DNA from: an uncultured Bacteroidia bacterium
Lineage (GTDB): Bacteria > Bacteroidota > Bacteroidia > Bacteroidales > UBA932
Length of the DNA stretch: 64,000 nucleotides
Direction of reading: 5' to 3'
NCBI GenBank assembly: GCA_902785785.1
Contig: CADAAA010000007.1
Span: 62,001-126,000, forward strand
Below, piece after piece: positions 42,537 through 64,000 of this stretch. The position numbers and the translations under genes were made by a program. How positions within the stretch are numbered: the stretch's first letter is position 1; every line of letters starts with the position of its first letter. The notes under the pieces were generated by a model. The model was not told the DNA's origin, ran no database searches, and was given only the letters and a program-made list of their open reading frames with translations.

Positions 42537-42575
42537 AAAAAAGGCTGACCGGTGTGTTCCGGCCAGCCTTTTTTT
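42537..42575. terminator. bidirectional intrinsic terminator
   Basis: A ten-position stem (42543-42552 with 42559-42568, one A-C mismatch) is flanked by six A on the left and seven T on the right, so it can terminate both converging operons. It abuts the stop codon of the minus-strand gene. Confidence 0.9.
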
Positions 42576-44235: not shown

Positions 44236-44244
44236 CTTAAAAGC

Positions 44245-45423: not shown

Positions 45424-45428
45424 GGCCG

Positions 45429-48086: not shown

Positions 48087-48817
48087 CTGGAGGCTATTCT
48101 AAGAAGTTCCTTGCAGAAAGTATCGAGGTCAACTCCCGGCATGTCCAGCCCGGCAGCTGAAATGGCCTTGCGGATCTCCTTGCGCCGCTCCGGGAACTTT
48201 TTCCTGAGATCCCCCTTGCTCCGGAAACGGCTTACGTGACCTTCACTATCCACGAAATAGTAAGTCTTGGTAATACCGAAATAGTTGTTGAGATTGGAAT
48301 TGTATGACGGGTCGTAATAACCTATAGGGTCTCCGTTCACGTTCTGTGAACTGTTCATCAGCCTCTTGGAGACATGTTTGTATACTTTCTCCGGCCCTTC
48401 CCCGAAAACCTCGTAGAACCCTTTGGGCAGTCCTGCCATGTCATCTCCTATGCCTACGAACAGCCTGCCTTCAGTCATGATGCTGCTGACGGTCTCGGGA
48501 CGGAGGGCAACGGCGACAGGGTTGTCACCCTTACGTACAAGTGCCAGGTCAGCCACGGCGTCGATGTTTACGAAAATGTCGTCGTAGAAATTTCCTTGGT
48601 ACGTAATCTGTCCCGGAGAGAATGTCGTAGAAGCCCAGTAAGGATTACCGTTGGCCGCATGTTCGTAGGTGGTGGCCTGTTTCCCCCGGAAGAGGACGGA
48701 GCCGTTTCCGGCTGCATTCTCGAAAGCCTTGAGTTCAGTGGTCGTCTGTGCCGAAGCAAAAAGGCTTGACAGTGCCAGGAAAAGACAGGAGGCTATTGTA
48801 ATAAATTCGTTTTTCAT
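48083..48817 (-). CDS. secreted hypothetical protein heading the second DUF4249 operon
   Basis: About 244 residues from the ATG at 48817, which opens a signal peptide (cut near A-S-A-Q). An ATG at 48850 lies within the upstream hairpin and is rejected. The C-terminal third is rich in Lys, Arg and Glu (S-K-G-D-L-R-K-K-F-P-E-R-R-K-E) and ends in helices. No named domain recognised. The four-base overlap with the receptor start indicates translational coupling, so it probably serves the receptor. Confidence 0.75.
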   Translation of the reverse strand: MKNEFITIASCLFLALSSLFASAQTTTELKAFENAAGNGSVLFRGKQATTYEHAANGNPYWASTTFSPGQITYQGNFYDDIFVNIDAVADLALVRKGDNPVAVALRPETVSSIMTEGRLFVGIGDDMAGLPKGFYEVFGEGPEKVYKHVSKRLMNSSQNVNGDPIGYYDPSYNSNLNNYFGITKTYYFVDSEGHVSRFRSKGDLRKKFPERRKEIRKAISAAGLDMPGVDLDTFCKELLRIASR

Positions 48818-48823
48818 GTGGCC

Positions 48824-48831
48824 CAAATATA
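48824..48831 (-). promoter_or_regulatory. -7 promoter box with very short or absent leader
   Basis: The minus strand reads TATATTTG with only six bases between the box and the ATG at 48817. If transcription starts at the usual distance, the mRNA would be leaderless or nearly so. No -33 match is visible. Confidence 0.5.
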
Positions 48832-48835
48832 CAAC

Positions 48836-48862
48836 AAAACCTGCGTTCATAACGCAGGTTTT
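48836..48862. terminator. hairpin terminator after the carboxylesterase pair
   Basis: A perfect 12-base inverted repeat (48836-48847 with 48851-48862, three-base loop) ends in TTTT on the minus strand, 31 bases after the stop of the esterase gene. It separates that operon from the receptor operon. Confidence 0.75.
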
Positions 48863-48892
48863 GATAAAAAAACTGCAAGTAATGCAATGTCT

Positions 48893-50461
48893 TTACTCCG
48901 ACTGGTGGAGGCGGTTGAACTCATCCAGTTGCTTGAAGCAGCAGGCGTTCAGTATCTCCTGGAGCGGACGGTCGAAGTTGTTCCGGACGTAGCACTCGTG
49001 GTCGAAGACGAAGCATTCGCCGTTCGCGGCAGTGTAAGGACGCCAGGCCGGGAGGCCTTCGACGTTCGGGTCGCCGGTGATGGCGAAATTGGCCCAGCTC
49101 CGGCTCATGTTGTCGGCCAGCTTCCAGTCGGCGTCGGTGACCTCGGGGAGCGTGCGGCCGTGACGGTCGGGAGTATTGAAGCAGAAGTTCAGCTCGTAGC
49201 CGTGGACGGACCCCTGGTCAGCCGGGGATTTCCATGTGAACATGTACATGTACATCGGGGCTTTCCTTTTGGCATAGATAGCATCCGCAGTGATCAGGGT
49301 TTTGGGACGGAACATCATGTCGATGGAGAGGAGGTCCTGGGGAGTGTAGTCCGGCCATGCCTCGGCAAAGGCCGCCACATACTCGTCCACGCGGTCCCCG
49401 AAGGTGGGCTTCAGCTGCTCTTTGGCCTCGTCAAGTGTCATGGGAGTGCCGTAGACGCGCCTCTGGAGCTCGTTGAAGGTGGTCCCGATCATCAGCGGAA
49501 CGTCATCGGAGATGCTGGCGAAATCCGGCTGGAAGGGCTGCTGGAGCAGCACTTCGCCGTCCGGCGCAGGGCCGAAGCCCCACATCATCGGCGTACCCGG
49601 GGACCGGGTGCCGATGCTGGCGGCCATGGCCCTCTGGCCGGCCGCGACAAGCTCGCCGTACGGCACGTCCTTCATCTTGTCCACCTCGTCAGGGCCGAAG
49701 CCCAACTGCTCCACCACCGCGCGGCCGAGCTCCTCGGCCATGGCCTTGGTGTTGACGTTGAGGATCGTACCGCTCATGATGATGGCCTTGTGGAACAGGC
49801 CCTTGGCGGCGGGCATGCACATCAATGTGCCGACCTTGCCGCCGCCTCCGGACTCGCCGAAGATCGTGACGTTGGACGGGTCACCGCCGAACGCCTTGAT
49901 ATTGTCCCTGATCCACTCCAATGCCTGCACGATGTCGAGCATGCCGACCATTCCGGAGTGTTTGTATTTCTCGCCGAAAGAGGAGAGATCCAGGAATCCG
50001 AGGATGTTGAGGCGATGGTTGAGGCTCACTACGACGACGTCCTGCTTGGCGAGACCATAACCGGGATTGCCGGCGGCCGAGCCGGAGTCGAAGCCGCCGC
50101 CGTGGATCCACAGCATCACTGGCTTGCTGGCCTTTGTGTCCGTCGTCCAGACATTCAGCACGCAGGAGTTCTTCTCGGACATTACGCTCTCGGGCATCTC
50201 ACGCCTGCCGTTGCCCTGCATCACCTGCGGCCCGAAGTGGTCGCAGACCATCACTGTGTCCCATTTGTCCACCGGCAGGGGAGGCATGAAGCGCTCAACC
50301 TTTGCATATGGGATGCCCATGAAAGCCATGGTACCATCCTCTTCAATACCCTTGACCTTTCCGTCCTTCGTACGAACTATGAGCGGGTCTGAAGGAGCGC
50401 AAGAGCAAACAGCCGCCGTCAGGGCGGCTGTTGCGAATATCAGCTTGAAAAGCGTTTTCAT
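48893..50461 (-). CDS. type-B carboxylesterase-family lipoprotein
   Basis: A 522-residue alpha/beta hydrolase. The oxyanion segment W-I-H-G-G-G-F and the nucleophile elbow G-E-S-G-G-G (Ser204) match the carboxylesterase/lipase type-B family. The usual F-x-E-D-C-L-x-L-N signature is altered to K-N-S-C-V-L-N-V-W. The signal ends C-S-C-A, so lipid attachment is likely. Its ATG overlaps the upstream esterase stop by one base (TAATG). Substrate is unknown: esters on plant polysaccharide or host compounds are possible. Confidence 0.9.
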   Translation of the reverse strand: MKTLFKLIFATAALTAAVCSCAPSDPLIVRTKDGKVKGIEEDGTMAFMGIPYAKVERFMPPLPVDKWDTVMVCDHFGPQVMQGNGRREMPESVMSEKNSCVLNVWTTDTKASKPVMLWIHGGGFDSGSAAGNPGYGLAKQDVVVVSLNHRLNILGFLDLSSFGEKYKHSGMVGMLDIVQALEWIRDNIKAFGGDPSNVTIFGESGGGGKVGTLMCMPAAKGLFHKAIIMSGTILNVNTKAMAEELGRAVVEQLGFGPDEVDKMKDVPYGELVAAGQRAMAASIGTRSPGTPMMWGFGPAPDGEVLLQQPFQPDFASISDDVPLMIGTTFNELQRRVYGTPMTLDEAKEQLKPTFGDRVDEYVAAFAEAWPDYTPQDLLSIDMMFRPKTLITADAIYAKRKAPMYMYMFTWKSPADQGSVHGYELNFCFNTPDRHGRTLPEVTDADWKLADNMSRSWANFAITGDPNVEGLPAWRPYTAANGECFVFDHECYVRNNFDRPLQEILNACCFKQLDEFNRLHQSE

Positions 50462-51921
50462 TACTGTCTTGCATTAGGGGAAAGAGGCTCGCCGAAGAAC
50501 GAAGCCTCGTTGTCATTCTCGTCGAGGCAGAACACCATGAAGCTCGGATCCTCCTTGGTGCAAGGCTTCCAGTCTCCCTGGGGATCGCTGTACTTGGCGA
50601 AGTTGGTCCATGCGGTGACCATCTTCTCGGCAAGGGCCCAGTCACCGTCAGTCCAGGGACGCCAGCAGTACTTGAGGGTCTTGAATACGAACCAGAGGTC
50701 GGAGGAGTGGAACGCTCCGCGCAGACGCTGGGTGACCTGAGGATGCTTGCCGTCGTCCGGCAGGGGACGCGCGAACTGGTAGGCGTATGCCTTGTTGCCC
50801 TTCTCCTGGCGGTCCTGGCAGAAAGCGGCGATGCCCGGAGGCATGTTGCCGGAGTCGTTCAGGGTGCAGCCTATCATGTAAGGGACATTGGCGAGGTTGC
50901 CTGACTTGGCAGCCGTGTCGAAATCCTGCTTGCAGACATATCCGTCAATGACAGGGGCGAACATGCCCATGCCGCCGCGCACTTCGTTGACGCGGTTGTA
51001 GATGTTCACGATGCTGAAGATCTCCTCGGTGGATGCTGCGCGCATCTTGTCGAGGTTGTCAAGCTTGGCCCAGTCCATGATCTCCTTATAATGATTCGCC
51101 TGTTCCTCGAGAGTCTGGGCGGGAGCTGGCTGGCGTGTGGGCATGCCGGGGATGGCCGGAGCCGGCATGGCGAAGCCCTGGGCGCTCATAATCACCGCCT
51201 TGTGGAAGAGGCCGCGGGCGATGGGGGACTCGCTGAGTGTGCGGGTGCTGCGGCCGCCGCCGCTCTGTCCGAAGATCATGACATTGTCGGGATCGCCTCC
51301 GAACTGTGCGATGTTCTTCTGGATCCACTTGAGGGCCTGGACCTGGTCCATGATGCCGTAGTTGCCGGAGGATCCGTGCTCGTTCTCCGCGATCAGGTCG
51401 GGATGCGACATGAATCCGAACATGCCGAGGCGGTAGTTGATGGTCACGAGGACCACGTCCTTGGAAGCGAACTCGTCACCGTAGAACTCGGGCTCGAAGC
51501 CCCAGCCTTCGCGCAGTCCTCCGCCATGGATCCACATGGCGACAGGAAGTTTGGCGTCAGGCTTTCCAGGTGCGGTCGTATAGACGTTGAGGTACAGGCA
51601 GTCCTCGCTGTACGCGGGCTCCTCGCCATAGCCCCATTCATCGGTATAGCCTCCGGGATAGTGCGTGACCTGGAATCCGGGATGGCCGAACCTGTCACAG
51701 ACCTTCACGCCCTCCCACGGGACGACGGGCTGAGGCTCCTTCCAGCGCAGCTGGCCGATCGGAGGAGCGGCATAAGGTATGCCCTTGTACACATAGACAC
51801 CTTTCTTCTCGGTGGATTTGATGCCCTGGACCTGGCCGCCTTCGATGGTCAGGACAGGATTGTACTCCTTGCACGCGAATAGTGCAAGGGCTGCCGCTAG
51901 GCAGATGACGATGCGTTTCAT
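50461..51921 (-). CDS. type-B carboxylesterase-family lipoprotein
   Basis: A 486-residue paralogue of the next gene. It keeps the family signature S-E-D-C-L-Y-L-N-V-Y, the oxyanion W-I-H-G-G-G, the nucleophile elbow G-Q-S-G-G-G (Ser220) and the His region G-A-F-H-S-S-D. The signal ends L-F-A-C-K, a lipobox. It is the first gene of a two-esterase operon, read divergently from the OB-fold/nuclease locus. A third homologue is cut by the right window edge. Confidence 0.92.
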   Translation of the reverse strand: MKRIVICLAAALALFACKEYNPVLTIEGGQVQGIKSTEKKGVYVYKGIPYAAPPIGQLRWKEPQPVVPWEGVKVCDRFGHPGFQVTHYPGGYTDEWGYGEEPAYSEDCLYLNVYTTAPGKPDAKLPVAMWIHGGGLREGWGFEPEFYGDEFASKDVVLVTINYRLGMFGFMSHPDLIAENEHGSSGNYGIMDQVQALKWIQKNIAQFGGDPDNVMIFGQSGGGRSTRTLSESPIARGLFHKAVIMSAQGFAMPAPAIPGMPTRQPAPAQTLEEQANHYKEIMDWAKLDNLDKMRAASTEEIFSIVNIYNRVNEVRGGMGMFAPVIDGYVCKQDFDTAAKSGNLANVPYMIGCTLNDSGNMPPGIAAFCQDRQEKGNKAYAYQFARPLPDDGKHPQVTQRLRGAFHSSDLWFVFKTLKYCWRPWTDGDWALAEKMVTAWTNFAKYSDPQGDWKPCTKEDPSFMVFCLDENDNEASFFGEPLSPNARQ

Positions 51922-51967
51922 AATGGATTGGTATTTGATGTTGGTTTAGTCCGTGTAGTGGTTTGTA

Positions 51968-51975
51968 CAAATATA
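51968..51975 (-). promoter_or_regulatory. -7 promoter box for the carboxylesterase operon
   Basis: TATATTTG on the minus strand, 46 bases upstream of the ATG at 51921. The CAAA (TTTG on the minus strand) at 51988-51991 is only 12 bp away, so the -33 is not standard. Confidence 0.5.
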
Positions 51976-52033
51976 GCCATATTATTTCAAAGAAAATGTC
52001 CGTGCCGGCTCATCTTCTTTCACAAATAATCCG

Positions 52034-52041
52034 TATCTTTA
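52034..52041 (+). promoter_or_regulatory. degenerate -7 box for the OB-fold/nuclease operon
   Basis: TATCTTTA differs from TAnnTTTG only in the last base and lies 48 bp before the first gene of the locus. No -33 match is seen, so activation by a regulator is possible. Confidence 0.4.
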
Positions 52042-52089
52042 TACCCTTAAGAGACAAAACTAATAATCAATAAAAAGCAACAGATAGTT

Positions 52090-55020
52090 ATGAACATCAA
52101 ACACATTGTATTAGGCTTCTTTGCAGCGACCGCAGTCCTCGTCGGCTGCCAGCCCAAGGAAGAGGATTTCGGCGTGGCCAAGATCGAGGTCAGTACCGGC
52201 CAGCTCACATTCGGCCCTGCATCGGGTTCGCAGACCCTCCAGGTCACCGCTTCCCGTGACTGGACCGTCACGGGCCTTCCTGAGTGGATTGCCGTCGATC
52301 CTGCAGGCGGGGCTCCCTCCAAGAGCGCCCAGACCGTCACCGTCACTGTCATAGCCAATGACGGATACAACCGCGAGGCTGACGTCACCTTCTCCATCGG
52401 CCTGATGAAGGAGTACGTCAAGGTCTTACAGACCGGCCAGAAAGGCGAGTATGACACCGGCAACGGTACCAAGGAGCGTCCGTACTCCGCTTCCGCCGCC
52501 GCTGATTACGTGAGTTCACTTCCGGCTGACACCGAGTCTTCCGATGCCATTTACATCAAGGGCATCATTTCTTCTGTCGGCACTACCTACGAGGCCAGCG
52601 GCAACTATGGCAACGCCAGTTTCTACATTTCGGATGACGGCTCCTCCACCGGTACGCAGTTCTATGTATTCCAGACCTATTATCTAGGTAACAATAAGTG
52701 GAAAGCCGGTGACGACGACGTCAAGGTTGGAGACGAAGTGATAGTCTATGGCAAGGTCATCAATTATAAGGGCAATACCCCTGAGACCGTTGGCAAGGGC
52801 GCCAGCTACGTCTATTCGCACAATGGCAAGACTGCCGGTGATAACCCCAACCCTCCCGCAGGTGATCCTAAGGGTACAGGCGTCAAGGATGACCCGTACA
52901 ACCCTGCCGCCGCCATCAATGCCGTGAAGGACCTTACCTGGACCGACAACAATACTTATGATGCGACCGGTGAGGTTTATGTCAAGGGCAAGATCTCCCG
53001 TATCGCCGACAAGGGCACCTTCACCGACGGTGGTACTTACGGCAACGCCTCCTTCTATATCTCCGAAGACGGCACTTCCGCCGGCGAGTTCTACTGCTTC
53101 CGCGTGCTTTACCTTGGCAACAAGAAGTTCGAGTCCGGCCAGACCGACATCAAGGTCGGTGACGAAGTCATCATCTGCGGCCAGTTGATGAACTACAAGG
53201 GCAATACTCCTGAGACGGTAGCAGGCAAGGCCTACTTGTATTCCCTCAATGGCAATACCGGTGGCGGTGACACTCCTCCTCCGGCAGGTGATCCTAAGGG
53301 CACAGGTGTCAAGGATGATCCGTACAACCCTGCCGCCGCCATCAATGCCGTGAAGGACCTTACCTGGACCGACAACAATACCTATGATGCGACCGGTGAG
53401 GTTTATGTCAAGGGTAAGATCTCCAAGATCGCCTCTGGCGGCACCTTCACCGAAGGCGGTACTTACGGCAATGCCTCCTTCTACATTTCCGAGGACGGCT
53501 CTTCCGCCGGCGAGTTCTACTGCTTCCGCGTGCTTTACCTTGGCAACAAGAAGTTCGAGTCCGGCCAGACCGACATCAAGGTAGGTGATGAAGTCGTGGT
53601 TTACGGCCAGTTGATGAATTACCGCAACAATACGCCTGAAACTGTGGCCGGCAAGGCATATCTCTATTCGCTCAATGGTGATACCGGCAGCGACACGCCT
53701 CCTACTCCTCCTACCCCTCCTTCTGGCGATCCCAAGGGCACCGGCACACTGGATGATCCTTATAACCCTCTTGGTGCAGTCAATGCCGTCAAGGACCTGA
53801 CCTGGACCAGCAATGACACCTACGATACAACCGCTGAGGTTTATGTAAAGGGCAAGATTTCCCGTATCGCAAACAAGGGGACCTTCACTGAGGGCGGCAC
53901 CTATGGCAACGCCTCTTTCTACATCTCCGAGGATGGCTCAGAGTCGGGTGAGTTCTACTGCTTCCGTGTCCTGTACCTTGGCAACAAGAAGTACGAGTCG
54001 GGACAGACCGACATAAAGGTCGGTGATGAGGTCGTGGTTTACGGCCAACTGATGAATTATCGTAACGATACGCCTGAGACAGTGTCCGGTAAGGCCTATC
54101 TGTATTCCCTGAACGGGAAGACCGAGGATGGCGGTGACACGCCTCCCACTCCTCCTACTCCTCCTTCCGGGGACCCCAGTGGTACGGGTACGCTGAATGA
54201 TCCTTACAACCCTGCAGCTGCGATCAATGCCGTCAAGGATCTGACCTGGACCGACAACAACACTTACGACAAGACCGACAATGTCTATGTAAAGGGCAAG
54301 ATCTCCCGTATCGCAAACAAGGGCACCTTCACCGAGGGCGGCACTTATGGCAATGCCTCTTTCTACATCTCCGCTGATGGCTCGGAGTCGGGTGAGTTCT
54401 ACTGCTTCCGCGTCCTGTACCTTGGCAACAAGAAGTACGAGGCAGGCCAGACCGACATCAAGGTTGGTGATGAGGTCGTGGTTTACGGCCAATTGATGAA
54501 TTATCATAACGACACGCCTGAGACGGTCGCCAATTCAGCATACCTTTACTCCTTGAACGGTAAAACCGAGGACGAAGGTGGCGGCCAGGGTGGCGGCGGC
54601 GAGACTACGGGTGACTTCAAGAGCAATCTGAAGTGGACACTTGGAGAAAACGCATATGACAATGAAGCAACGGTCAATGGAACAGCCGGCGTATCTGTAC
54701 TGAAACTTGGAACGTCTTCCAAGGTTGGAACAGCTACTGTCACTATACCTGCTGGCACTAAGAAGATTTCCTTCTATGGCGTTTCATGGAAGGGTAAGGA
54801 AGCTTCCGTGGCCTTTAAGATCGGCGGCGAAACAGCCTATAAACAAGCATTGAAGCCCAATGATGGCGCTGCCAACAATTCGCCGTTCACCATGACAGTG
54901 ACCAGTTCTGATCAGTACACTTATACTCTTTCAGAGGTTCCTTCATCAGCCGTTACGGCCACTATTACTACTGAGGGCTCCAATACGCGTATCATCATAT
55001 TCGCTTTGAATGCCGAATAG
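52090..55020 (+). CDS. BACON plus five OB-fold repeats, surface lipoprotein
   Basis: A 976-residue lipoprotein (signal ending V-G-C, then Q-P-K-E-E-D, which resembles the Bacteroidota surface-export signal). A BACON-like domain occupies about residues 30-118. Five OB-fold modules follow: a divergent one (about 120-255) and four near-identical ones starting at 52861, 53287, 53725 and 54169. They are joined by Gly/Pro linkers such as P-P-T-P-P-T-P-P. The last 135 residues form a different beta-sandwich. No catalytic motif is visible. It heads a tight operon with two nuclease-type enzymes and a TonB receptor. OB-folds of this kind accompany secreted nucleases, so polyvalent binding of extracellular nucleic acid is my favoured role. 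Confidence 0.85.
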   Translation: MNIKHIVLGFFAATAVLVGCQPKEEDFGVAKIEVSTGQLTFGPASGSQTLQVTASRDWTVTGLPEWIAVDPAGGAPSKSAQTVTVTVIANDGYNREADVTFSIGLMKEYVKVLQTGQKGEYDTGNGTKERPYSASAAADYVSSLPADTESSDAIYIKGIISSVGTTYEASGNYGNASFYISDDGSSTGTQFYVFQTYYLGNNKWKAGDDDVKVGDEVIVYGKVINYKGNTPETVGKGASYVYSHNGKTAGDNPNPPAGDPKGTGVKDDPYNPAAAINAVKDLTWTDNNTYDATGEVYVKGKISRIADKGTFTDGGTYGNASFYISEDGTSAGEFYCFRVLYLGNKKFESGQTDIKVGDEVIICGQLMNYKGNTPETVAGKAYLYSLNGNTGGGDTPPPAGDPKGTGVKDDPYNPAAAINAVKDLTWTDNNTYDATGEVYVKGKISKIASGGTFTEGGTYGNASFYISEDGSSAGEFYCFRVLYLGNKKFESGQTDIKVGDEVVVYGQLMNYRNNTPETVAGKAYLYSLNGDTGSDTPPTPPTPPSGDPKGTGTLDDPYNPLGAVNAVKDLTWTSNDTYDTTAEVYVKGKISRIANKGTFTEGGTYGNASFYISEDGSESGEFYCFRVLYLGNKKYESGQTDIKVGDEVVVYGQLMNYRNDTPETVSGKAYLYSLNGKTEDGGDTPPTPPTPPSGDPSGTGTLNDPYNPAAAINAVKDLTWTDNNTYDKTDNVYVKGKISRIANKGTFTEGGTYGNASFYISADGSESGEFYCFRVLYLGNKKYEAGQTDIKVGDEVVVYGQLMNYHNDTPETVANSAYLYSLNGKTEDEGGGQGGGGETTGDFKSNLKWTLGENAYDNEATVNGTAGVSVLKLGTSSKVGTATVTIPAGTKKISFYGVSWKGKEASVAFKIGGETAYKQALKPNDGAANNSPFTMTVTSSDQYTYTLSEVPSSAVTATITTEGSNTRIIIFALNAE
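52861..54590 (+). repeat. four tandem OB-module repeats (142-148 codons each)
   Basis: Units begin at 52861, 53287, 53725 and 54169 (spacing 426, 438 and 444 bp, all multiples of three). Units one and two share long identical DNA stretches, for example across the A-A-A-I-N-A-V-K-D-L-T-W-T-D segment, while units three and four resemble each other more. This indicates recent in-frame duplication and possible copy-number change. The end coordinate is approximate. Confidence 0.9.
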
Positions 55021-55023
55021 CAG

Positions 55024-56211
55024 ATGAAACTTCGTAGGATCATAGCGGCGCTGGGCGCCGGGCTGCTCGTGCTCGGGTCATGTCAAGGACCCGAGCCTGA
55101 AGAGCCCGTGCTGCCCGCCGCGCTGACCACGCCCGTGCTGCAGCTGGAGCCTGCCTCCGGCAGCGTGTTCCTGTCGGTGACGGCGAGCAAGGACTGGAGC
55201 ATCACCACGTCCTACTCCGGCGACTCCGGCTGGGCCACTGTATCGCCAGCGACAGGCTCTGGCAGCCGCAACAGCGTGATCTTCTCATATGGGGCGAACG
55301 AGAGCGAGGAGGCGCGCAGCGTCACGCTGACCCTGACCGCCAACCCCGGCGGCCAGGCTTCGCTGACGCTGACGCAGAAGGGCATCGTCAAGCCCGATGT
55401 CCCTCCGCAGCAGTACGGTTACGGCTACGATGTGGCTAAGGCGCACTGGCTTGAGCTCCCCGCCACGAAGGCCGACGACGGCAAGGAGTGGTTCGCCCAC
55501 GACATGAGCGGCGGTGATTATTTCTCCAAACCGAACAACAAACGCAACTGGTCCTTCTACTACGATTACGACTCCTATCTCGCCACCTGGGTAGCCTATC
55601 CGCTCAACAAGGCACTTATCGGCAACGGAAGCCGGACCAATGCCTGGGGGTATGATCCTCTCCTCCCGTCATCTTGGCAGCAGGCCATTGTCAACGGGGC
55701 CTATGGCACCGGCCATACGCGCGGGCATCAGTTACCTTCGGCGGACCGCCTGACCTATGCCGCCAACGTCTCGACCTTCTATGCAACCAACATGACGCCG
55801 CAGGATTATGATTTCAACTGCGGCATCTGGGCTAATCTCGAGAACAAGGTGCGCAGTTATGCCAGTTCCTCCGACACTCTGTATGTCGTCACAGGTTGCG
55901 TCGTAGACGGCAAGTCACCTACGCTGCGTGACCGTGAAGACCATCCCGTCCGTGTCCCGTCCGCCTATTTCAAGGCTCTTCTCCGTTACATGCCTGGCTC
56001 GACGCTAGGTTACGGCGGGTACATGGCATGTGGATTCTTCTTCGCGCATACGTCGAGCATAGCGAATGACAATTTCGTCACCTACATCATGTCCATCGAC
56101 GAGCTTGAGGAGAAGACCGGCATCGAGTTCTTCGTGAACCTCCCGGAGGCGGTCGGCGCAGACAATGCACGAAAGATAAAGTCACAGGAGCCTGTCTCCT
56201 GGTGGAAATAA
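55024..56211 (+). CDS. secreted DNA/RNA non-specific endonuclease with BACON-like domain
   Basis: A 395-residue lipoprotein (signal ending G-S-C-Q). A BACON-like domain lies at about 38-122, then a beta-beta-alpha-metal nuclease domain of the Serratia NucA type at about 150-385. The catalytic motif D-R-G-H appears as T-R-G-H with His235 and is followed by Q-L-P-S-A-D-R. The metal-ligand region F-Y-A-T-N-M-T-P-Q-D, ending in the helix with I-W-A-N-L-E, is intact. It would cut single- and double-stranded DNA and RNA to oligonucleotides. It starts three bases after the OB-fold gene. Confidence 0.9.
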   Translation: MKLRRIIAALGAGLLVLGSCQGPEPEEPVLPAALTTPVLQLEPASGSVFLSVTASKDWSITTSYSGDSGWATVSPATGSGSRNSVIFSYGANESEEARSVTLTLTANPGGQASLTLTQKGIVKPDVPPQQYGYGYDVAKAHWLELPATKADDGKEWFAHDMSGGDYFSKPNNKRNWSFYYDYDSYLATWVAYPLNKALIGNGSRTNAWGYDPLLPSSWQQAIVNGAYGTGHTRGHQLPSADRLTYAANVSTFYATNMTPQDYDFNCGIWANLENKVRSYASSSDTLYVVTGCVVDGKSPTLRDREDHPVRVPSAYFKALLRYMPGSTLGYGGYMACGFFFAHTSSIANDNFVTYIMSIDELEEKTGIEFFVNLPEAVGADNARKIKSQEPVSWWK

Positions 56212-56226
56212 TTAATAACCAATTCG

Positions 56227-57366
56227 ATGAAAAAGTATTTATATAACCTGATCTTCCTTCTCGCTGTTCTGCCGTTCCTCAACGGATGCGGCGCGGCGCG
56301 GTCTGTTTACGCTCCGGAGGAGAACATGTCCGCGCGGATGGGCAGCGCCCCCGTGCAGACGGGCAAGAGCTATGTCATCGGCTTCTACAACCTTGAGAAT
56401 CTCTTCGACACCGTCCACGACGATGGCAAGAACGACTATGAGTATCTACCCGACGGCGCCAACCAATGGACGGAGACCAAGTACCAGAAGAAACTCAGCA
56501 ACATGGCCCAGGTGATAGCCGCCATGAAGCAGGACAACGGCGCTTGGCACACGGTCCTCGGAGTGTCCGAGATTGAGAACCGCCATGTCCTGGAGGACCT
56601 TGTGGCCGACCCTCAGATCGCCGACGCCAATTTCCAGATAGTCCATTATGACGGGCCTGATACCCGCGGAGTGGATGTCGCCCTGCTGTACAAGCCGGAC
56701 CAGTTCACATATCTGGACAGCGAGAGCATCCCGTTCGACTTCAACAGCCAGGCAATTACTTTCAGCAGCATGACGCAGGAGGATAAGGACAGTTTCCGTA
56801 CCCGTGACGTCCTGATGGTCCACGGCCTGATCGACGGCGAGCACTTTGCCATCTACGTGGCCCACCTCCCTTCACGCCGTGGCGCGAAGAGCGGCGACCT
56901 GCGCTCGCGCGGAGGCGAGATCATCTATCAGCATGCGATGCAGATGATGCAGAAGTATCCCGGCATCAAGTGCGTCGTGATGGGCGACATGAACGACAAT
57001 CCCACCGATCCGTCACTGGCTGAGTTCCTCCATGGTAAGGAAACCATCGACGAGGTCGGTCAGGCCGACTTCTTCTCGCCTTTCCTGTCCATGCTCAAGA
57101 ACGGCTACGGCTCGCTGGCATATCAGGGAGAGTGGAACATCTACGACTGCATCCTGGTCAACAACTCCCTCGCGCATCCCGAGGCAGGGACCCTGGGCAT
57201 CATCCCCATCACCAATCAGAAGTTCTACGGACGCATCTTTGCCAAGCCGTTCATGACCCAGCAGAGCGGACAGTACAAGAACACCCCGTTCCGCACCTCC
57301 TCCAACGGCTCATTCATCGGAGGTTATTCCGACCACTATCCGACCTATATCGTCATAAAGAAATAA
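56227..57366 (+). CDS. endonuclease/exonuclease/phosphatase-family lipoprotein
   Basis: A 379-residue protein with the signal ending L-N-G-C-G. All EEP-fold motifs are present in order: Y-N-L-E-N-L-F-D, S-E-I-E-N (metal Glu), R-G-V-D-V-A-L-L-Y, H-L-P-S-R-R-G, G-D-M-N-D-N-P (catalytic Asp/Asn) and Y-S-D-H-Y-P (general-base His). Family members are DNases, RNases and phosphoesterases. In ExeM- and Xds-type secreted nucleases an EEP domain is fused to an OB-fold, which matches this operon's gene content. Fifteen bases separate it from the endonuclease gene. Confidence 0.92.
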   Translation: MKKYLYNLIFLLAVLPFLNGCGAARSVYAPEENMSARMGSAPVQTGKSYVIGFYNLENLFDTVHDDGKNDYEYLPDGANQWTETKYQKKLSNMAQVIAAMKQDNGAWHTVLGVSEIENRHVLEDLVADPQIADANFQIVHYDGPDTRGVDVALLYKPDQFTYLDSESIPFDFNSQAITFSSMTQEDKDSFRTRDVLMVHGLIDGEHFAIYVAHLPSRRGAKSGDLRSRGGEIIYQHAMQMMQKYPGIKCVVMGDMNDNPTDPSLAEFLHGKETIDEVGQADFFSPFLSMLKNGYGSLAYQGEWNIYDCILVNNSLAHPEAGTLGIIPITNQKFYGRIFAKPFMTQQSGQYKNTPFRTSSNGSFIGGYSDHYPTYIVIKK

Positions 57367-57372
57367 CCAGAT

Positions 57373-60309
57373 ATGAAAAGACTCTTAACGACATTGTGTG
57401 CCTTGCTTGCCGGCGTGATGCTGCTGGCGCAGCCGACCGGCGGCGTCAAGGGCGTCGTGGTGAGCCGTGGTGACCGCCAGCCGGTCGAGGGTGCGAGGCT
57501 CGTCCTGCTCCAGGGCGCGGCCGAGCTCACCGAGACCGTGTCGGCAGCCGACGGCTCGTTCCTCATCGAGAATCTTGAGGATGGCATGTACACGCTCGTC
57601 ATCACTTGCGAGGACTTCCTGGAGACGCATGTCCAGGTCACGGTCAACGACGGCTTCGTGAAGAATATGTTCAACCTGTCGCTGACGTCGGCGCAGCGGG
57701 CCATCGAGATCGATGACGATGCTTTCGCCGCTTTCGACATGGATGATTCGGGCTACAACGACAATCCTACCATCCTGTTCGATGCCAACGATGTGTTCAA
57801 CAACATCGCCGGATACAATTTCAGCGCGGTCCGTTTCCAGGCGCGAGGCTATACGTCCGAGTCACAGGATGTCTACCTCGCCGGCGTAAAGATGAACGAC
57901 GCCGTCACCGGCTATTCTCCTTTCTCACTTTGGAGCGGCCTCAACGAGGCCATGCGCTCGAAGGAGACGGTCAACGGCTCCGAGGTCTCGGACTTCGGCT
58001 TCGGCGGCTACAACGGCCTGACCAACATCTTCGCCAATGCTTCCAACGTACGCAAGGGATGGAGGGGGAGTGTCCTGACCAACAGTTCGCTCTACCGCCT
58101 GCGCCTCATGGGCACCTACGCATCCGGCCCGCTTGACAATGGCTGGTCCTATGCGGTCAACGTTTCCGCCCGTCTCGGCGGCAACGACTGGATAGACGGA
58201 GTCTACTACCGTTCTTTCGCATACTATCTCGCCGCGGACAAGAAATTCGGCGACGCGCATCAGCTCGGCTTCGTGTTCTTCTCCACTCCCGGCCAGCGCG
58301 GAGCGCAGAACGCCTCCACGCAGGAGGTCTACGACCTGATGGGGGACAACATGTACAACTCCAACTGGGGCTACCAGAACGGTCGCGTCCGCAACGCCCG
58401 AGTCCGCAAGACGAATGAACCTATAGCGATCCTGAAGTACGACTACACTCCGTCCGACCGTTTCCAGGCATCCGCGACGCTCCTGTACAGATTCGGAAAG
58501 AACGGCTACACCGCCCTCGACTGGTACGATGCCCAGGATCCCCGCCCGGACTACTACCGCAACCTTCCCAGCTATTTCTACGATGCCAATCCTGACATGA
58601 ACAGGAACAATTTCGTGAAATACGCGTGGGCTAAGGAAGTCTGGACACACTCGTCGGACTATCCTAACCTCACTCACATCGACTGGGACCGCCTTTATGC
58701 GGTGAACCGCCTGCAGGGCACCGGCAATGGGGACGCCCGCTCCAAGTATGTGCAGGAGGAGCGTCATGTCGACCAGCGCGACCTCAATTTCGCGGCGACC
58801 TTCAAGGCCCGTCCGTCCGAGACCATCGTCCTCACAGGTGGAGTCAGCGCCAGGATCAACCGCAGCGAGAACTATAAACTGGTCGCCGACTTGCTCGGCG
58901 GAGATTATTTCCTCAACATCGACAACTTCGCGGAGCGCGATTTCGCGTCCACTGCCGCCAAGGTCCAGAACGATTTGGATTATTATATGGCCCACGGGAG
59001 CGCCGAGGTGCTCCATGTCGGTGACAAATACGGCTATGACTACTATGCGCAGGTGCGCAAGGCCGAAGGCTGGCTCAACGGCCGCTTCGCCTTCGGCAAC
59101 CTCAGCGCCAGCATCGGCGGCCGTGTCGGCTTCGAGTCCTTCTGGCGCGAGGGCCTGATGCGGAAGGGCCTTTTCGCCGGCCTCGACGAGAGCGGCAGGG
59201 AGATCATTGTCGACGGAGTGAATCTCACCTCGTATGATTCCAAAGGCAAGGTCATTTCCTCCTATGGCAAGTCTGATGTATCGAGCTATCTCACTTATGC
59301 GGCCAAGGCCGGACTGAGCTACTTGATAGGTGGTACACAGCGCATCTATGCCAACGCCGGATACTTCAACGACGCTCCTAAGTTCAATCAGGCTTTCCTT
59401 TCCGCGCGTACGCGCAATTCCCTTGTGGAAGACCTGAGGCCGATCAAGACTTTCTCGTCCGACATCAACTGGCAGTACGGGTCCAACGGTATCAACATCC
59501 GCGCCACGGCGTTCTATACCACGATCAAGGACCAGACTGACGTGATGAGCGCCTTCGACGACATCCAGAACGCTTTCTCGAACTTCGCGATCAGCGGCAT
59601 CGACCAGCGCAACATGGGTATCGAGTTCGGCTTCAAGGTCCCGACCTATTTCATCCCCAACCTGTCCGTGCAGGGAGTCCTTGCCGCGGGACGGTATGAG
59701 TACACCTCCAATCCACGCATGACGCAGACCGTGGACAACAGTGCGGAGGTCGTCATGGAGAATGTCCTCGTGCCTTACTGGAAGAGTAGTCCGGTCTATC
59801 CCAAGGATGCTTCCGGAAGGATCACCACGACGGATGTTTCCGCTTACGAGCGCATGCAGCAGCATTATGTACCTTCAACGCCTCAGCTGGCTGCGAGTCT
59901 CGGCCTGAGCTACAACTACAACTACTGGTATATCGACGGGGATGTCGAGTATTTTGCAAAGTCCTATCTCGACATGAATCCGCTCTACCGCACCGACTAT
60001 GCGACTTCGGGTCCGGACTACAACGTCACGCCCGAGGAGATCGAGTACATGACTTCCCAGGAAGAGTTCGACCCTGCCTGGCTGGTGAACGCGAGCATCG
60101 GAAAGTCGTGGTACATTAACAACAACCAACTGGGTTTCTCGCTCAATGTCAAGAATCTCCTGAACAACAGGAATGTCAAGACCGGTGGTTACGAGCAGAC
60201 CCGCATCGTGGACAATACCGTCGGCAAGGAGCGCTTCTACCGCTTTGACCCGAAGTATTTCTATATGGCGGGAGCCAATTACATGTTGAACATTTATTTC
60301 AGATTCTAA
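57373..60309 (+). CDS. TonB-dependent receptor of the nuclease/OB-fold locus
   Basis: A 978-residue outer-membrane receptor. A signal peptide (cut near L-L-A-Q) is followed by a carboxypeptidase-regulatory-like domain (about 22-110), a short acidic stretch, a plug with F-Q-A-R-G-Y and N-D-A-V-T-G-Y, and a long barrel ending I-Y-F-R-F. No STN domain, so no FecI/FecR signalling. The barrel is rich in Asn, Tyr and Arg. It is placed between the EEP protein and the DUF5689 lipoprotein with gaps of six and three bases, and is the presumed importer of the products made by the two nucleases. Confidence 0.93.
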   Translation: MKRLLTTLCALLAGVMLLAQPTGGVKGVVVSRGDRQPVEGARLVLLQGAAELTETVSAADGSFLIENLEDGMYTLVITCEDFLETHVQVTVNDGFVKNMFNLSLTSAQRAIEIDDDAFAAFDMDDSGYNDNPTILFDANDVFNNIAGYNFSAVRFQARGYTSESQDVYLAGVKMNDAVTGYSPFSLWSGLNEAMRSKETVNGSEVSDFGFGGYNGLTNIFANASNVRKGWRGSVLTNSSLYRLRLMGTYASGPLDNGWSYAVNVSARLGGNDWIDGVYYRSFAYYLAADKKFGDAHQLGFVFFSTPGQRGAQNASTQEVYDLMGDNMYNSNWGYQNGRVRNARVRKTNEPIAILKYDYTPSDRFQASATLLYRFGKNGYTALDWYDAQDPRPDYYRNLPSYFYDANPDMNRNNFVKYAWAKEVWTHSSDYPNLTHIDWDRLYAVNRLQGTGNGDARSKYVQEERHVDQRDLNFAATFKARPSETIVLTGGVSARINRSENYKLVADLLGGDYFLNIDNFAERDFASTAAKVQNDLDYYMAHGSAEVLHVGDKYGYDYYAQVRKAEGWLNGRFAFGNLSASIGGRVGFESFWREGLMRKGLFAGLDESGREIIVDGVNLTSYDSKGKVISSYGKSDVSSYLTYAAKAGLSYLIGGTQRIYANAGYFNDAPKFNQAFLSARTRNSLVEDLRPIKTFSSDINWQYGSNGINIRATAFYTTIKDQTDVMSAFDDIQNAFSNFAISGIDQRNMGIEFGFKVPTYFIPNLSVQGVLAAGRYEYTSNPRMTQTVDNSAEVVMENVLVPYWKSSPVYPKDASGRITTTDVSAYERMQQHYVPSTPQLAASLGLSYNYNYWYIDGDVEYFAKSYLDMNPLYRTDYATSGPDYNVTPEEIEYMTSQEEFDPAWLVNASIGKSWYINNNQLGFSLNVKNLLNNRNVKTGGYEQTRIVDNTVGKERFYRFDPKYFYMAGANYMLNIYFRF

Positions 60310-60312
60310 GCC

Positions 60313-61488
60313 ATGAAAAGAACGATTATCGCATTTGGCGCCCTCCTGGCGCTCATTTCCTGCCAGAGTCTGAAGGAAGAATGGCAGCCGGTGTTCACCT
60401 TCGACGCCAATGAACCGGCTGAGTTCGTCCCCGTTATGGAGGCGGAGCTGATGTCGCGCTACCATTTCACGGAGTTCACCACCATCCAGGCCCTGAAGGC
60501 CATGTACAAGTCACCAGGCGTCGAGATCACCGGTAATGTCTGGATCAAGGGCCAGGTCATTTCCTCCGACCGTACTGGCAATATCTATCGCGAGCTATAT
60601 ATTCAGGACGGTACCGGCGGCATCGACGTCAAGGTCGGCAAGTCTTCCCTTTATAGCGATTACAGACTCGGCCAGTGGGTATATGTCCGCTGCTCCAGCC
60701 TTACGCTCGGTTCGTATAACGGAATGCCACAGCTGGGCATGGAACCGGATGATACTTCGACCAATGAGTATGAGACGTCCTATATAGACCTTCAGGCCAT
60801 CATCAACGAGCATGTGTTCAAGGGAGCATACGATACGCCCGTGGCTCCGCAGGTCGTCACCGAGGACCAGATCAAGACTGCCATCAAGACCGGTTACAAG
60901 CATGAGTTGTGGGGTAAGTATGTGACGGTCAAGGGACTGAAATACAGCAACGAGGTCTTCGCCCTCCTGTATCCCAACAGCAACCTTCCTCACAAGAGCG
61001 GCAATCCTGAGAACCGTGTGTTCCTCTCAACCCCTCAGAGCGGCGCCGTCCCTGGATTTGACTATACTTGGGGCATCGACTCCTGGGCCCTTTCCAAGGC
61101 CAGATATGTCGAGCTCATCAAGTCGGGCAAGCTGGACCAGGCCGAGGTTGGCAGCGGCGCAACGAGGTACGGCACCATTCTCGGTACCCCGCGCCAGTAT
61201 CTCTCTCCGGGCCGGACGCTCGACAGTTTCGGCACGGATGCCGACCTGACTTACAAGGATATCATGATAAAGTATGCCGGGGCCAATACCATCTCGCAGT
61301 ATTTCAAGCTCGGCTCAACCGATATCCAGATCCGCACCAGCGGATATGCGAAGTTTGCGGACGAGAAGATCGACAGTGACATTGTGAACGGGACTCCGAT
61401 CGACGTCACCGGCATCCTGACCATATACAGTGGATCGGCGCAGTTCACCCTCGTGGACGAGCCTTCCATTTCAGTAATCAAGCATTGA
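60313..61488 (+). CDS. DUF5689 OB-fold lipoprotein
   Basis: A 391-residue lipoprotein whose signal ends I-S-C-Q, followed by S-L-K-E-E, an acidic surface-export-like patch. The DUF5689 domain at about 50-145 has the OB-like pattern I-K-G-Q-V-I-S-S, L-Y-I-Q-D-G-T-G-G-I and G-Q-W-V-Y-V-R-C. A second OB-like region closes the protein (V-T-G-I-L-T-I-Y-S-G). Its place after the receptor is that of SusD/DUF4249-type lids, so it is probably the receptor's surface partner. Confidence 0.85.
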   Translation: MKRTIIAFGALLALISCQSLKEEWQPVFTFDANEPAEFVPVMEAELMSRYHFTEFTTIQALKAMYKSPGVEITGNVWIKGQVISSDRTGNIYRELYIQDGTGGIDVKVGKSSLYSDYRLGQWVYVRCSSLTLGSYNGMPQLGMEPDDTSTNEYETSYIDLQAIINEHVFKGAYDTPVAPQVVTEDQIKTAIKTGYKHELWGKYVTVKGLKYSNEVFALLYPNSNLPHKSGNPENRVFLSTPQSGAVPGFDYTWGIDSWALSKARYVELIKSGKLDQAEVGSGATRYGTILGTPRQYLSPGRTLDSFGTDADLTYKDIMIKYAGANTISQYFKLGSTDIQIRTSGYAKFADEKIDSDIVNGTPIDVTGILTIYSGSAQFTLVDEPSISVIKH

Positions 61489-61492: not shown

Positions 61493-63532
61493 ATGACAAG
61501 AATGAATCATTTGGCCGGGATAGCCGGCCTGACTCTCATGACCCTCCTTACCGCCTGTACGGGCAACACCCGCGTCAATCCCTTCCTCGAAGAGTGGAAC
61601 ACTCCTTACGGCATACCGCCGTTCGACAAGATCGAATACGCTGACTATGTACCTGCTTTCAAGGCCGGTATCGAGCAGCAGCAGAAAGAGATCGAAGCTA
61701 TCATCGCTAATACCGATGCGCCGACCTTCGATAATGTGATCGGTGCGATGGAGCTGTCCGGCAGCATCCTCAGCAAGGTGCAGGGCGTCTTCTACAACGT
61801 CAGCGAGACCGAGAACTGTCCCGAGCTCGTGGCCATCGAGGAGGAGATCACTCCGCTCGTGTCCGAGCACAGCGACAACATCTATATGAACAAGGACCTC
61901 TACAAGAAGGTCGCTGCGGTGTACAATGCCGACCAGAGCGGTCTCACCCGCGAGCAGCAGATGGTCCTCAAGAAGACCTATGAGGCCTTCGAGCGCAACG
62001 GTATCGGCCTCGACGAGGCCAAGCAGGCCAGGCTGCGCGAGATCAACACCGAGATGTCGGCCAAGACCAACAAGATCGGCAACAACAACCTCGCGGAGAA
62101 CAACGCCTTCAAGGAGCGCTTCGGCATTTCCGTGTCAGCGTATCCGACTGCGATGACCACTACCGAGGACCGCTCTCTGCGTGAGGAGATGTTCATGGCC
62201 TATTCATCCCGCGGACATAACGGCAATGAGAACGACAACCGCCAGCTCGTGCTCGACGTGATGCGCCTGCGCATCGAGAAGGCCAAGCTGATGGGCTACG
62301 ACAATCCCGCCGCATTCATCCTCGAGCCTAAGATGGCCCACGATCCCGAGACCGTGGATGAGTTCCTTGACGGCATCATGAAGGCCTCCGTCGCCAAGGC
62401 CAAGGAGGAGATAGCCGATATGCAGAAAGTCATGGACCAGGACATCAAGGCCGGTCTGCTCCCCGCCGGGACCAAGATCAAGCCGTGGGACTGGTGGTAC
62501 TATGCCGAGAAGGTCCGCAAGGCCAAGTATGACCTCGACGAGGACCTGACTAAGCCTTATTTCGAGATGAAGAACGTGCAGAAGGGTGTCTTCGAGGCTG
62601 CCCATACCCTGTACGGAGTTAACTTCAAGCGTCTCGAGGGCGTCAAGCTTTACAATGACGCTGCCGAGGCTTGGAAGCTGACCGATGCCGACGGCTCGTT
62701 GCTGGGCATCTTCTTCTGCGACTATTTCCCGCGTTCGACCAAGCGCAGCGGCGCATGGATGAACAACTTCCGCGACCAGTATTACGATGCCGACGGCAAA
62801 GAGGTCCGTCCTATCATCGTCAACGTCTGCAACTTCTCGTCACCTGACGAGGACGGCACCGCCCTGCTGACCGTCGACGAGGTGGAGACTGCTTTCCATG
62901 AGTTCGGTCATGCCCTTCACGGCTTCCTTACCAAATGCCACTATCCTTCGGTGAGCGGTACTTCCGTCGCCCGCGACTTCGTAGAGACCTTCTCGCAGTT
63001 CAACGAGAACTGGGCCTTCCAGCCTGAGCTTCTCGCCAAGTACGCCGTCCACTACCAGACCGGCGAGGTTATCCCCCAGGAGCTTGTGGACAAGATCGAG
63101 GCCGCTTCGAAGTTCAACCAGGGCTTCATGACCACTGAGCTTTGCGCCGCATCTATCCTCGACATGAAGTGGCATGAGCTCTCCAGCATCGAGGGTATCG
63201 ACATCGACGAGTTCGAGGCCAAGGTCTGCAAGGAGATGGGTCTGATCGACGAGATCATCCCGCGCTACCGCACGACTTACTTCAACCATATCTTCTCCAG
63301 TGGCTACAGCGCCGGTTACTACGGCTACCTGTGGTCCGAGGTCCTGGACAAGGACGCATTCTCGTTCTTCGAGAAGAGCCCTAACGGTGTCTGGGATCCC
63401 GCTCTGGCCAAGAAGTTCCGCCAGACCTTCCTGGAGAAGGGCGGCAGCGAGGAGCCGATGACGCTCTACCGGCAGTTCGCCGGCCGCGAGCCCGACTCCG
63501 AGGCCTTCCTCCGCGGCCGCGGGCTTAAGTAG
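61493..63532 (+). CDS. M3-family zinc metallopeptidase (peptidyl-dipeptidase Dcp/oligopeptidase A type), lipoprotein
   Basis: A 679-residue thimet-type peptidase with the zinc motif H-E-F-G-H (His469, Glu470, His473 from the ATG at 61493; ATG 61502 is an alternative). The large all-helical fold with the substrate-recognition segment near S-G-Y-S-A-G-Y-Y-G-Y-L-W is conserved. The signal ends L-T-A-C, so it is a periplasmic or surface lipoprotein that trims oligopeptides. It lies only four bases after the DUF5689 gene and may share its transcript, although peptide cleavage has no obvious link to nucleic acids. Confidence 0.93.
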   Translation: MTRMNHLAGIAGLTLMTLLTACTGNTRVNPFLEEWNTPYGIPPFDKIEYADYVPAFKAGIEQQQKEIEAIIANTDAPTFDNVIGAMELSGSILSKVQGVFYNVSETENCPELVAIEEEITPLVSEHSDNIYMNKDLYKKVAAVYNADQSGLTREQQMVLKKTYEAFERNGIGLDEAKQARLREINTEMSAKTNKIGNNNLAENNAFKERFGISVSAYPTAMTTTEDRSLREEMFMAYSSRGHNGNENDNRQLVLDVMRLRIEKAKLMGYDNPAAFILEPKMAHDPETVDEFLDGIMKASVAKAKEEIADMQKVMDQDIKAGLLPAGTKIKPWDWWYYAEKVRKAKYDLDEDLTKPYFEMKNVQKGVFEAAHTLYGVNFKRLEGVKLYNDAAEAWKLTDADGSLLGIFFCDYFPRSTKRSGAWMNNFRDQYYDADGKEVRPIIVNVCNFSSPDEDGTALLTVDEVETAFHEFGHALHGFLTKCHYPSVSGTSVARDFVETFSQFNENWAFQPELLAKYAVHYQTGEVIPQELVDKIEAASKFNQGFMTTELCAASILDMKWHELSSIEGIDIDEFEAKVCKEMGLIDEIIPRYRTTYFNHIFSSGYSAGYYGYLWSEVLDKDAFSFFEKSPNGVWDPALAKKFRQTFLEKGGSEEPMTLYRQFAGREPDSEAFLRGRGLK

Positions 63533-63539: not shown

Positions 63540-63710
63540 TGCGGCTAAGGCTTTAGCTCCGCATCGCCCCTGCTAAGCACAAAACCCCGTTTTTTGTGCT
63601 TATTCCGCCCGTTTAGCATCGAAAAAAGCACAAATCGTGTTGATTTGTGCTTTTTTTTGTCGGTAATTCCTTGAAACAAGCAAAAACTGACCGGTTTTGT
63701 GCTTGTTTTT
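63540..63710. terminator. cluster of hairpins between the M3 peptidase and the converging carboxylesterase
   Basis: A GC-rich hairpin (63540-63563) is followed by three AT-flanked ones: 63575-63601, 63622-63658 and 63674-63710. The last three share the stem core AGCACAAA/TTTGTGCT (the third with a one-base bulge). The second ends in eight T on the plus strand and begins with six A, so it terminates in both directions. Terminator use is likely; the triple repetition is unusual. Confidence 0.75.
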
Positions 63711-63713: not shown

Positions 63714-64000
63714 CTATTGCCCTCTCTGGAGCGGCTTGCCCATGGCGGAAGCGTCCTTGGTGTTGTCCTCGTTGAGGTTGAAGATCATGTAGTCGGGAGC
63801 GTCGGGCGTCCAGGCTTTCCAGCCTTCGCCGGGATCGCCTGTCTTGACGAAGTTGGACCAGCAGTTGATGACATGCTCCGCGAGGTCCCAGTCGGCCTGG
63901 GTGAACGGGCGGTCGCTGCGGTCGAGCGACTTGAACATGAACCAGAGCTCCGAGGAGTGGAAGGCGCCCTTCATGTCATGCGAACCGGCCTCGTCGTCCG
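63714..64000 (-). CDS. type-B carboxylesterase, C-terminal part (5' end outside window)
   Basis: The minus-strand frame is open to the last base, so only about 94 C-terminal residues are visible. D-D-E-A-G-S-H-D and G-A-F-H-S-S-E-L-W match the catalytic-His region of type-B carboxylesterases and the two esterases at 48893-51921. The end contains a W-S-N-F-V-K-T-G-D-P segment, as in those paralogues. It makes a third member of the group in this neighbourhood. Confidence 0.85.
   Translation of the reverse strand, partial: DDEAGSHDMKGAFHSSELWFMFKSLDRSDRPFTQADWDLAEHVINCWSNFVKTGDPGEGWKAWTPDAPDYMIFNLNEDNTKDASAMGKPLQRGQ

Follow-up and report, generated by a model that had tools for sequence, protein, structure and literature searches.

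A Bacteroidales operon linking homologues of a Riemerella transformation pair to nucleases: a candidate system for nucleic-acid import through the outer membrane

The route by which DNA passes through the outer membrane of Bacteroidota is, to our knowledge, unsolved. This question is raised by a run of genes in the window, the whole 64,000-nucleotide stretch that was analysed here (positions 62,001 to 126,000 of contig CADAAA010000007.1, assembly GCA_902785785.1), which comes from an uncultured bacterium of the Bacteroidales lineage UBA932. A TonB-dependent-type outer-membrane barrel and a DUF5689 lipoprotein, homologues of two proteins that the duck bacterium Riemerella anatipestifer needs for natural transformation, are encoded in this run together with two nucleases and a surface lipoprotein of repeated OB modules. 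Does the run import nucleic acid and, if so, is the nucleic acid used as food or as genes? We believe that the operon is an outer-membrane import system for nucleic acid, most likely DNA, with a probability of about 0.68. Its parts are as follows.

52090-55020, plus strand: OB-repeat surface lipoprotein, 976 amino acids (open reading frame and Pfam)
55024-56211, plus strand: BACON domain and NucA/EndA-type DNA/RNA non-specific endonuclease, 395 amino acids (open reading frame and Pfam)
56227-57366, plus strand: EEP-fold nuclease/phosphatase (Exo_endo_phos_3), 379 amino acids (open reading frame and Pfam)
57373-60309, plus strand: TonB-dependent-type outer-membrane barrel, 978 amino acids (open reading frame and Pfam)
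60313-61488, plus strand: DUF5689/OB surface lipoprotein, 391 amino acids (open reading frame and Pfam)
61493-63532, plus strand: M3-family peptidase lipoprotein, peptidyl-dipeptidase-like (PF01432, 1.9e-122)
63628-63658, plus strand: terminator-like hairpin with a T-run, 3' of the M3 gene (fold of 63615-63665)

The first-pass annotation of this DNA had described the first five genes as codirectional, with gaps of 3 to 15 bases, and the list of open reading frames bore this out (3, 15, 6 and 3 bases along the run), as Pfam did for the domain identities of the five proteins (BACON/OB, NucA-type, EEP, TonB receptor and DUF5689). The tight run is thus real, but it is longer than had been noticed, since a sixth gene, encoding the M3 peptidase, starts only 4 bases after the DUF5689 gene. 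The upstream neighbour is divergently oriented (51921 to 52090). At the other end, the hairpin at 63628-63658 probably ends the operon transcript; the 63615-63665 segment folds at -20 kcal/mol (z -5.5), and a pattern scan for terminators did not list this hairpin.

The evidence on the ligand comes from a relative. In a transposon screen for natural transformation in R. anatipestifer, two proteins without known mechanism were named: RA0C_RS04915, an outer-membrane protein with a CarboxypepD_reg domain, and RA0C_RS04920, a DUF5689 protein (PMC8459023, in its passages on these genes). Markerless deletion of either gene left no transformants (limit 4.2e-10, as compared to 5.4e-5 for the wild type), and in the authors' speculative model the two proteins bind DNA and pass it through the outer membrane; the same passages report RS04915 homologues only in Flavobacteriaceae, with homologues of both proteins in the genus Flavobacterium (PMC8459023).

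For comparison with the window, we used a region of R. anatipestifer CCUG25054, a strain other than that of the screen, which was located by a comEC primer from PMC8383284. Its gene order is recA, dinB, sdhB, sdhA, sdhC, comEC, a 145-amino-acid gene, a carboxyltransferase-like gene, EEP, barrel and DUF5689, where the barrel and DUF5689 were identified by Pfam, EEP by phmmer and comEC by the primer. The remaining gene names are those that we presume from the sequences. This order fits the locus tags of recA (RS04870), comEC (RS04895), the barrel (RS04915) and DUF5689 (RS04920), which advance in steps of five and thus put the Riemerella EEP gene at the place of RS04910. The window proteins matched this region by phmmer for the barrel (2e-92), EEP (3e-50) and DUF5689 (3e-13). 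In a quick maximum-likelihood tree of 39 rows, the window and Riemerella barrels shared a 33-row clade with a Shimodaira-Hasegawa-like approximate likelihood ratio (SH-aLRT) support of 93; outside it lay three paralogues (one a Riemerella protein) and three further receptors of the window, the receptors serving as outgroup under a long-branch warning. By these matches, the window barrel and DUF5689 protein are homologues of RS04915 and RS04920. Because deletion of the Riemerella homologues abolishes transformation, a nucleic-acid ligand has genetic support from a relative; a need for natural transformation is demonstrated for the Riemerella homologues only and would be carried to the window pair by homology. 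The first-pass annotation, which had proposed nucleic-acid capture, cutting and uptake, therefore offered what is still the best-supported reading in view of the Riemerella deletions; it missed the link to transformation, and where it knew of no described TonB-dependent import system for oligonucleotides in Bacteroidota, the receptor and DUF5689 homologues had been published in 2021 as Riemerella transformation genes (PMC8459023, same passages).

Are these genes conserved together? DUF5689 was sought in 101 genomes, and the barrel, NucA and EEP in 60 genomes of the same genus. We found 46 barrel loci in 45 of the 60 genomes, a count that excludes a truncated barrel remnant in genome G019. EEP lay upstream of the barrel in 45 of the 46 loci, NucA upstream in 45 and DUF5689 downstream in 44; NucA, EEP, barrel and DUF5689 stood in the window's order in 43. 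At the three incomplete loci (G046:C134, G040:C82 and G060:C21), a contig end cuts the barrel on the side of the missing gene. The arrangement exceeds chance, and the co-conservation of nuclease, EEP, receptor and DUF5689 that the first-pass annotation had proposed as a check is thus found in the genus. Fifteen of the 60 genomes lacked a whole barrel, and many of these are incomplete assemblies; among the 25 genomes that were at least 90% complete, the barrel search matched in 22, the G019 remnant included. The only DUF5689 match among the fifteen was a 29-residue piece at a contig end in G002, which may carry the barrel and DUF5689 genes unseen; this piece was left out of the co-occurrence count.

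Gene content was read in eight regions from the barrel-less genomes. Two of them (G008 and G058) contain an Oar-like barrel (discussed below), the OB lipoprotein, NucA, EEP and M3, and lack exactly the barrel and DUF5689. In G001 the contig starts inside NucA and M3 directly follows EEP; G019 has a 542-amino-acid barrel remnant and no DUF5689; the G015 contig stops inside EEP; and G030, G021 and G024 retain NucA and M3 with no EEP at that place. The joint absence of the barrel and DUF5689 indicates that the two behave as one unit. The M3 peptidase remains at the end of the cluster even without EEP, barrel and DUF5689.

Beyond the genus, the barrel search matched 147 of 247 phylum genomes at E <= 0.001, mostly weakly, and most of the weak matches are probably TonB receptors in general. 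At E <= 1e-39 there were 39 matching genomes, every one of them from the 61 genomes of the window's class, and the best match outside the class was 4.7e-20. Regions were fetched from 20 of the 38 genomes at this threshold besides G000. DUF5689 adjoined or just followed the barrel in 19 of these 20 regions, with weaker matches (E 2e-6 to 1e-5) in five, and EEP adjoined the barrel in 14. In the EEP tree, these 14 barrel-adjacent copies grouped with the Riemerella and genus EEPs. Seven same-genus genomes have a second EEP copy, and these copies were set apart from this group with a support of 100. The long-branched L099 copy was also outside it, and L082_non, a copy some 3 kb away from the barrel-adjacent EEP of L082, fell inside. 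Taken together, the class-level and Riemerella neighbourhoods and the EEP tree make EEP, barrel and DUF5689 look like an ancestral unit. Outside the order to which the window belongs, neither NucA nor the OB-repeat protein was seen; taxonomic order was judged from kinship codes. In viral contigs, an EEP scan found nothing and a barrel scan gave one pattern-matching stretch, which encodes no relative.

Several class-level regions depart from this arrangement. In one clade, a major facilitator superfamily transporter replaces EEP upstream of the barrel (L086 6677-7897 and L087 6442-7653, both scanned), and L094 and L098 have similar genes of 404-405 amino acids in that place. Second DUF5689 proteins are encoded in L081 (13127-15790, minus strand), upstream of NucA, and in L091 (6424-7134, minus strand), between the barrel and the main DUF5689 gene.

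The individual proteins were examined for what they might do. The barrel matches PF00593 (TonB_dep_Rec_b-barrel, 2.5e-11) and PF13620 (CarboxypepD_reg, 3.1e-10), and 64 columns are conserved in at least 94% of the rows in an alignment of 33 homologues; there was no PDB sequence match at E <= 1. The DUF5689 protein, whose gene lies 3 bases downstream of the barrel gene in the window, matches PF18942 (1.5e-43) and has an OB match just below the cut-off; a PDB search gave only RPA2 (E 0.45). The NucA-type protein combines BACON with Endonuclease_NS (Pfam, 1.3e-38) and matches the PDB nuclease chain 2o3b_A, which we take to be Anabaena NucA, at 5e-24. RGH, the Asn of N-x-TPQ and W-x-x-LE are kept in all 23 aligned rows, so that the window protein has the Endonuclease_NS domain, the RGH motif and the metal-binding Asn. 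The EEP protein matches PF19580 (Exo_endo_phos_3, 9.2e-88); all 36 aligned rows retain the motifs N, E, H, D-x-N and S-D-H, and there was no PDB sequence match at E <= 0.01. The roles of the NucA and EEP motifs are as we presume them from other members of these families.

The OB-repeat lipoprotein is proposed as the surface binder of nucleic acid. Pfam finds the OB family tRNA_anti-codon in four stretches (5.8e-23), plus BACON, and by eye the architecture is a lipobox, BACON, five OB modules (52459-54594) and a C-terminal domain. The modules sit in a tandem DNA repeat with a period of about 426-444 bases; compared with the second module, identity is 81-91% for three of the others and 55% for the first. 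The near-identical tandem modules occupy 52851-54531, and the corresponding open reading frames of relatives are of very different lengths, a sign that recombination may change the number of modules.

In Bacteroidota, acidic residues behind the lipobox Cys mark lipoproteins for export to the surface, and the OB-repeat protein carries them. In 20 same-genus regions, a simple pattern found a lipobox in the OB-repeat protein (17/18), NucA (18/20), DUF5689 (20/20) and M3 (16/17), and in EEP in only 3 of 20. At least two acidic residues at positions +2 to +8 after the Cys were present in 13 of 17 OB-repeat proteins, 13 of 18 NucA proteins and 18 of 20 DUF5689 proteins, as compared to none of the three EEP and none of the 16 M3 proteins. 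This pattern suggests that the OB-repeat protein, NucA and DUF5689 are outside the cell and that EEP and M3 are periplasmic.

The compartments and families make a mechanism plausible. The multi-OB lipoprotein may hold DNA at the cell surface, where the NucA-type lipoprotein, given its family and active site, would nick or cut it. DUF5689 and the barrel, which are paired in the genomes, may then form a unit passing DNA into the periplasm, with TonB supplying the energy. There EEP, placed by its signal sequence, would trim or dephosphorylate the DNA, which might go on to ComEC or be degraded for nucleosides and phosphate. According to the passages of PMC8383284 on these mutants, Riemerella tonBA and tonBB mutants transform less, and of the two only tonBB lowers iron acquisition. 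The gene content of the operon suggests TonB-powered DNA uptake without the usual pilus. A broader form of the idea, which we hold tentatively and at somewhat less than even odds, is that Bacteroidota do without a pilus and secretin for DNA entry and use a dedicated outer-membrane barrel, energised by TonB, with a DUF5689 OB lipoprotein as its cap, and that the window encodes this as a self-contained operon with a surface DNA holder, an EndA-like entry nuclease and an EEP trimmer, for both feeding and gene uptake. The pair occurs here in another order of the class to which Flavobacteriaceae belong, so that it reaches well beyond that family, and its physical tie to a non-specific nuclease, an EEP protein and a multi-OB surface protein offers a plausible mechanism in which DNA is held, cut, imported and trimmed, one that is open to direct test.

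A number of observations weigh against nucleic-acid import as we propose it. Identity to the Riemerella proteins is low (only about 29-33% for the barrel, and about 32% over 140 residues for DUF5689), and loss of transformation in Riemerella is not proof that the barrel is the route of the DNA. Under one set of conditions Flavobacterium johnsoniae could not be transformed, although homologues of both proteins are listed for its genus. The Plug model fails to match the window barrel itself, whose diverged plug region was assigned by alignment with homologues (in L092, one of them, the corresponding stretch scores above the Plug cut-off); nor does the barrel alignment contain a clear TonB box, only a conserved acidic stretch. 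Structure models did not help: AlphaFold gave the five OB modules a predicted local distance difference test score (pLDDT) of 57.6, too weak to confirm the fold, Foldseek with this model found no match at E <= 0.001, and the single-sequence DUF5689 model (pLDDT 30) was unusable for fold confirmation. Many of the top Foldseek rows are what we take to be OB-fold proteins, and these were not counted as evidence. Just 2 of the 20 class-level regions contain NucA, both of them from the order of the window, and the Riemerella region lacks it. Finally, NucA persists in relatives that have no barrel, as EEP does in some of them, so the nucleases have some further use apart from this barrel.

The last of these points bears on the fate of the nucleic acid. 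The operon could be purely nutritional, with DNA and RNA of lysed cells cut outside, oligonucleotides imported and then degraded in the periplasm, and no link to transformation. A surface nuclease and a periplasmic EEP beside an importer match the outside-endo, inside-exo logic that is typical of Bacteroidota nutrient loci, and the nucleases persist without the barrel. ComEC is no argument for transformation either, as 243 of the 247 phylum genomes have it, whether or not they carry the barrel; being near-universal, it cannot separate food from transformation. Two in-frame stops interrupt the comEC match of G215, a genome whose barrel, DUF5689 and EEP look complete (L091). This hints at a ComEC-independent use and counts against our preferred reading, although an assembly error could explain the stops. 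However, the experimental data found on the barrel/DUF5689 pair concern transformation only, and a scan of 35 window proteins, 29 of them outside the operon and together fewer than all the open reading frames, recognised no gene for nucleoside or nucleotide catabolism. We regard an exclusively nutritional role as a serious contender that falls somewhat short of an even chance.

At the other extreme, the operon may be a dedicated transformation machine that supplies the outer-membrane part of competence, in which NucA would play the role of EndA, the entry nuclease of pneumococcus. Its barrel, DUF5689 and EEP are homologous to the Riemerella transformation locus, and the genome has ComEC, DprA and a 337-amino-acid protein with two helix-hairpin-helix (HhH) motifs and, by eye, a membrane-anchor-like segment, which matches a Riemerella HhH-type protein at 8.4e-18. 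Against this, NucA is missing from the locus in Riemerella and in 18 of 20 class-level regions, the barrel and comEC are more than 0.3 Mb apart in the four genomes that have both on one contig (G129, G157, G195 and G203), and RS04910, the EEP position, is not among the mutants in the tables of PMC8459023. We consider a dedicated machine unlikely, and think that food use with occasional transformation is somewhat more likely here.

An ordinary receptor for protein, peptide or glycan, indirectly needed for transformation in Riemerella and adjacent to the nucleases by accident, seems improbable to us. The only PDB sequence match of the OB-repeat protein was to a GH16 chain and covered residues 29-116, where BACON lies, and the M3 peptidase is a constant neighbour that would fit peptide use; but an accidental neighbourhood is difficult to reconcile with an order kept at 43 of 46 loci, and the run contains no glycosidase. 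Scavenging of phosphate or nucleotides, or import of another phosphorylated polymer, is highly improbable: EEP-fold enzymes include phosphatases, going by the family name only, and phosphate removal lowers Riemerella transformation (PMC8383284, in its part on phosphate), whereas NucA-type endonucleases, as a family, act specifically on nucleic acid, the same scan of 35 proteins recognised no phosphate-uptake gene, and nothing in the analysis specifically backs this reading.

The operon was probably once part of a larger cluster, and the following features lie upstream of it in the window.

36479-39862, plus strand: second barrel, CarboxypepD_reg and OMP_b-brl_4, 1127 amino acids (PF25183, 3.4e-49)
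39820-42063, plus strand: BACON/OB lipoprotein following the second barrel (BACON_2, 4.4e-13)
42574-51921, minus strand: block of about 9.3 kb between the second-barrel pair and the operon

The label Oar-like for the second barrel is our presumption. The lipoprotein matches tRNA_anti-codon at 1.8e-6 over the whole protein, with no single stretch passing, and the true start of its open reading frame is probably further in. Of the 20 same-genus barrel regions fetched first, 10 have the second barrel upstream; it also lies upstream in L120 and in six of the eight barrel-less regions, generally with the BACON/OB lipoprotein alongside; some regions without it end too soon to tell. In the window the pair stands beside a metK gene, as it does in L111, L112, L119 and L120. 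It is probably a detached part of the ancestral cluster, a part that the first-pass annotation did not include. The intervening minus-strand block encodes an MG2-like protein, DUF4249, a TonB receptor, an unmatched 255-amino-acid protein and two carboxylesterases, and none of these six genes was found in 32 regions from relatives. A frame resembling the carboxylesterases of 48893-51921 leaves the end of the window (63714-63998, minus strand).

How does the operon compare with known systems? The likeness of the second barrel to Oar is one that we presume, as its computed matches are to OMP_b-brl_4 and CarboxypepD_reg only, and it is paired with a BACON/OB lipoprotein. Oar of Myxococcus xanthus is, in the passages of PMC6434023 on this protein, a TonB-dependent transporter needed for protease secretion. 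The Sus likeness drawn in the first-pass annotation holds for the layout, in that surface lipoproteins, a surface enzyme, a TonB-type barrel and a lipoprotein partner share one operon in both; the enzymes here, however, are nucleases, and we dropped a SusCD reading because none of the six proteins matched a SusD Pfam family or a SusC NCBIfam model. ExeM/NucH nucleases share the EEP domain, with a weak partial match of 30.8 bits that is far from the NF033681 cut-off of 300; OB and EEP are separate neighbours in the window, as had been claimed, and not fused as in ExeM. What we take to be fellow Endonuclease_NS members, Anabaena NucA, Serratia nuclease and pneumococcal EndA, share the domain and the RGH and Asn motifs with the window protein, which differs as a BACON-bearing lipoprotein in an outer-membrane transport operon. 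Among the matches listed from open-licence literature without preprints, on nucleic-acid import and transformation in this phylum and on DUF5689, an operon of this kind was not recognised; the only paper listed for DUF5689 and the Riemerella tags was PMC8459023. The closest relative is the Riemerella RS04915/RS04920 locus, where a CarboxypepD_reg barrel of the same clade is likewise directly followed by DUF5689 and adjoined by EEP. In Riemerella, EEP is divergent, comEC and recA are nearby and the DUF5689 protein is longer, whereas the window operon has EEP codirectional and adds the OB-repeat lipoprotein, NucA and M3 in one run. Thus, the pair itself is known from Riemerella, and what is new is its union with nucleases and a multi-OB binder in one operon.

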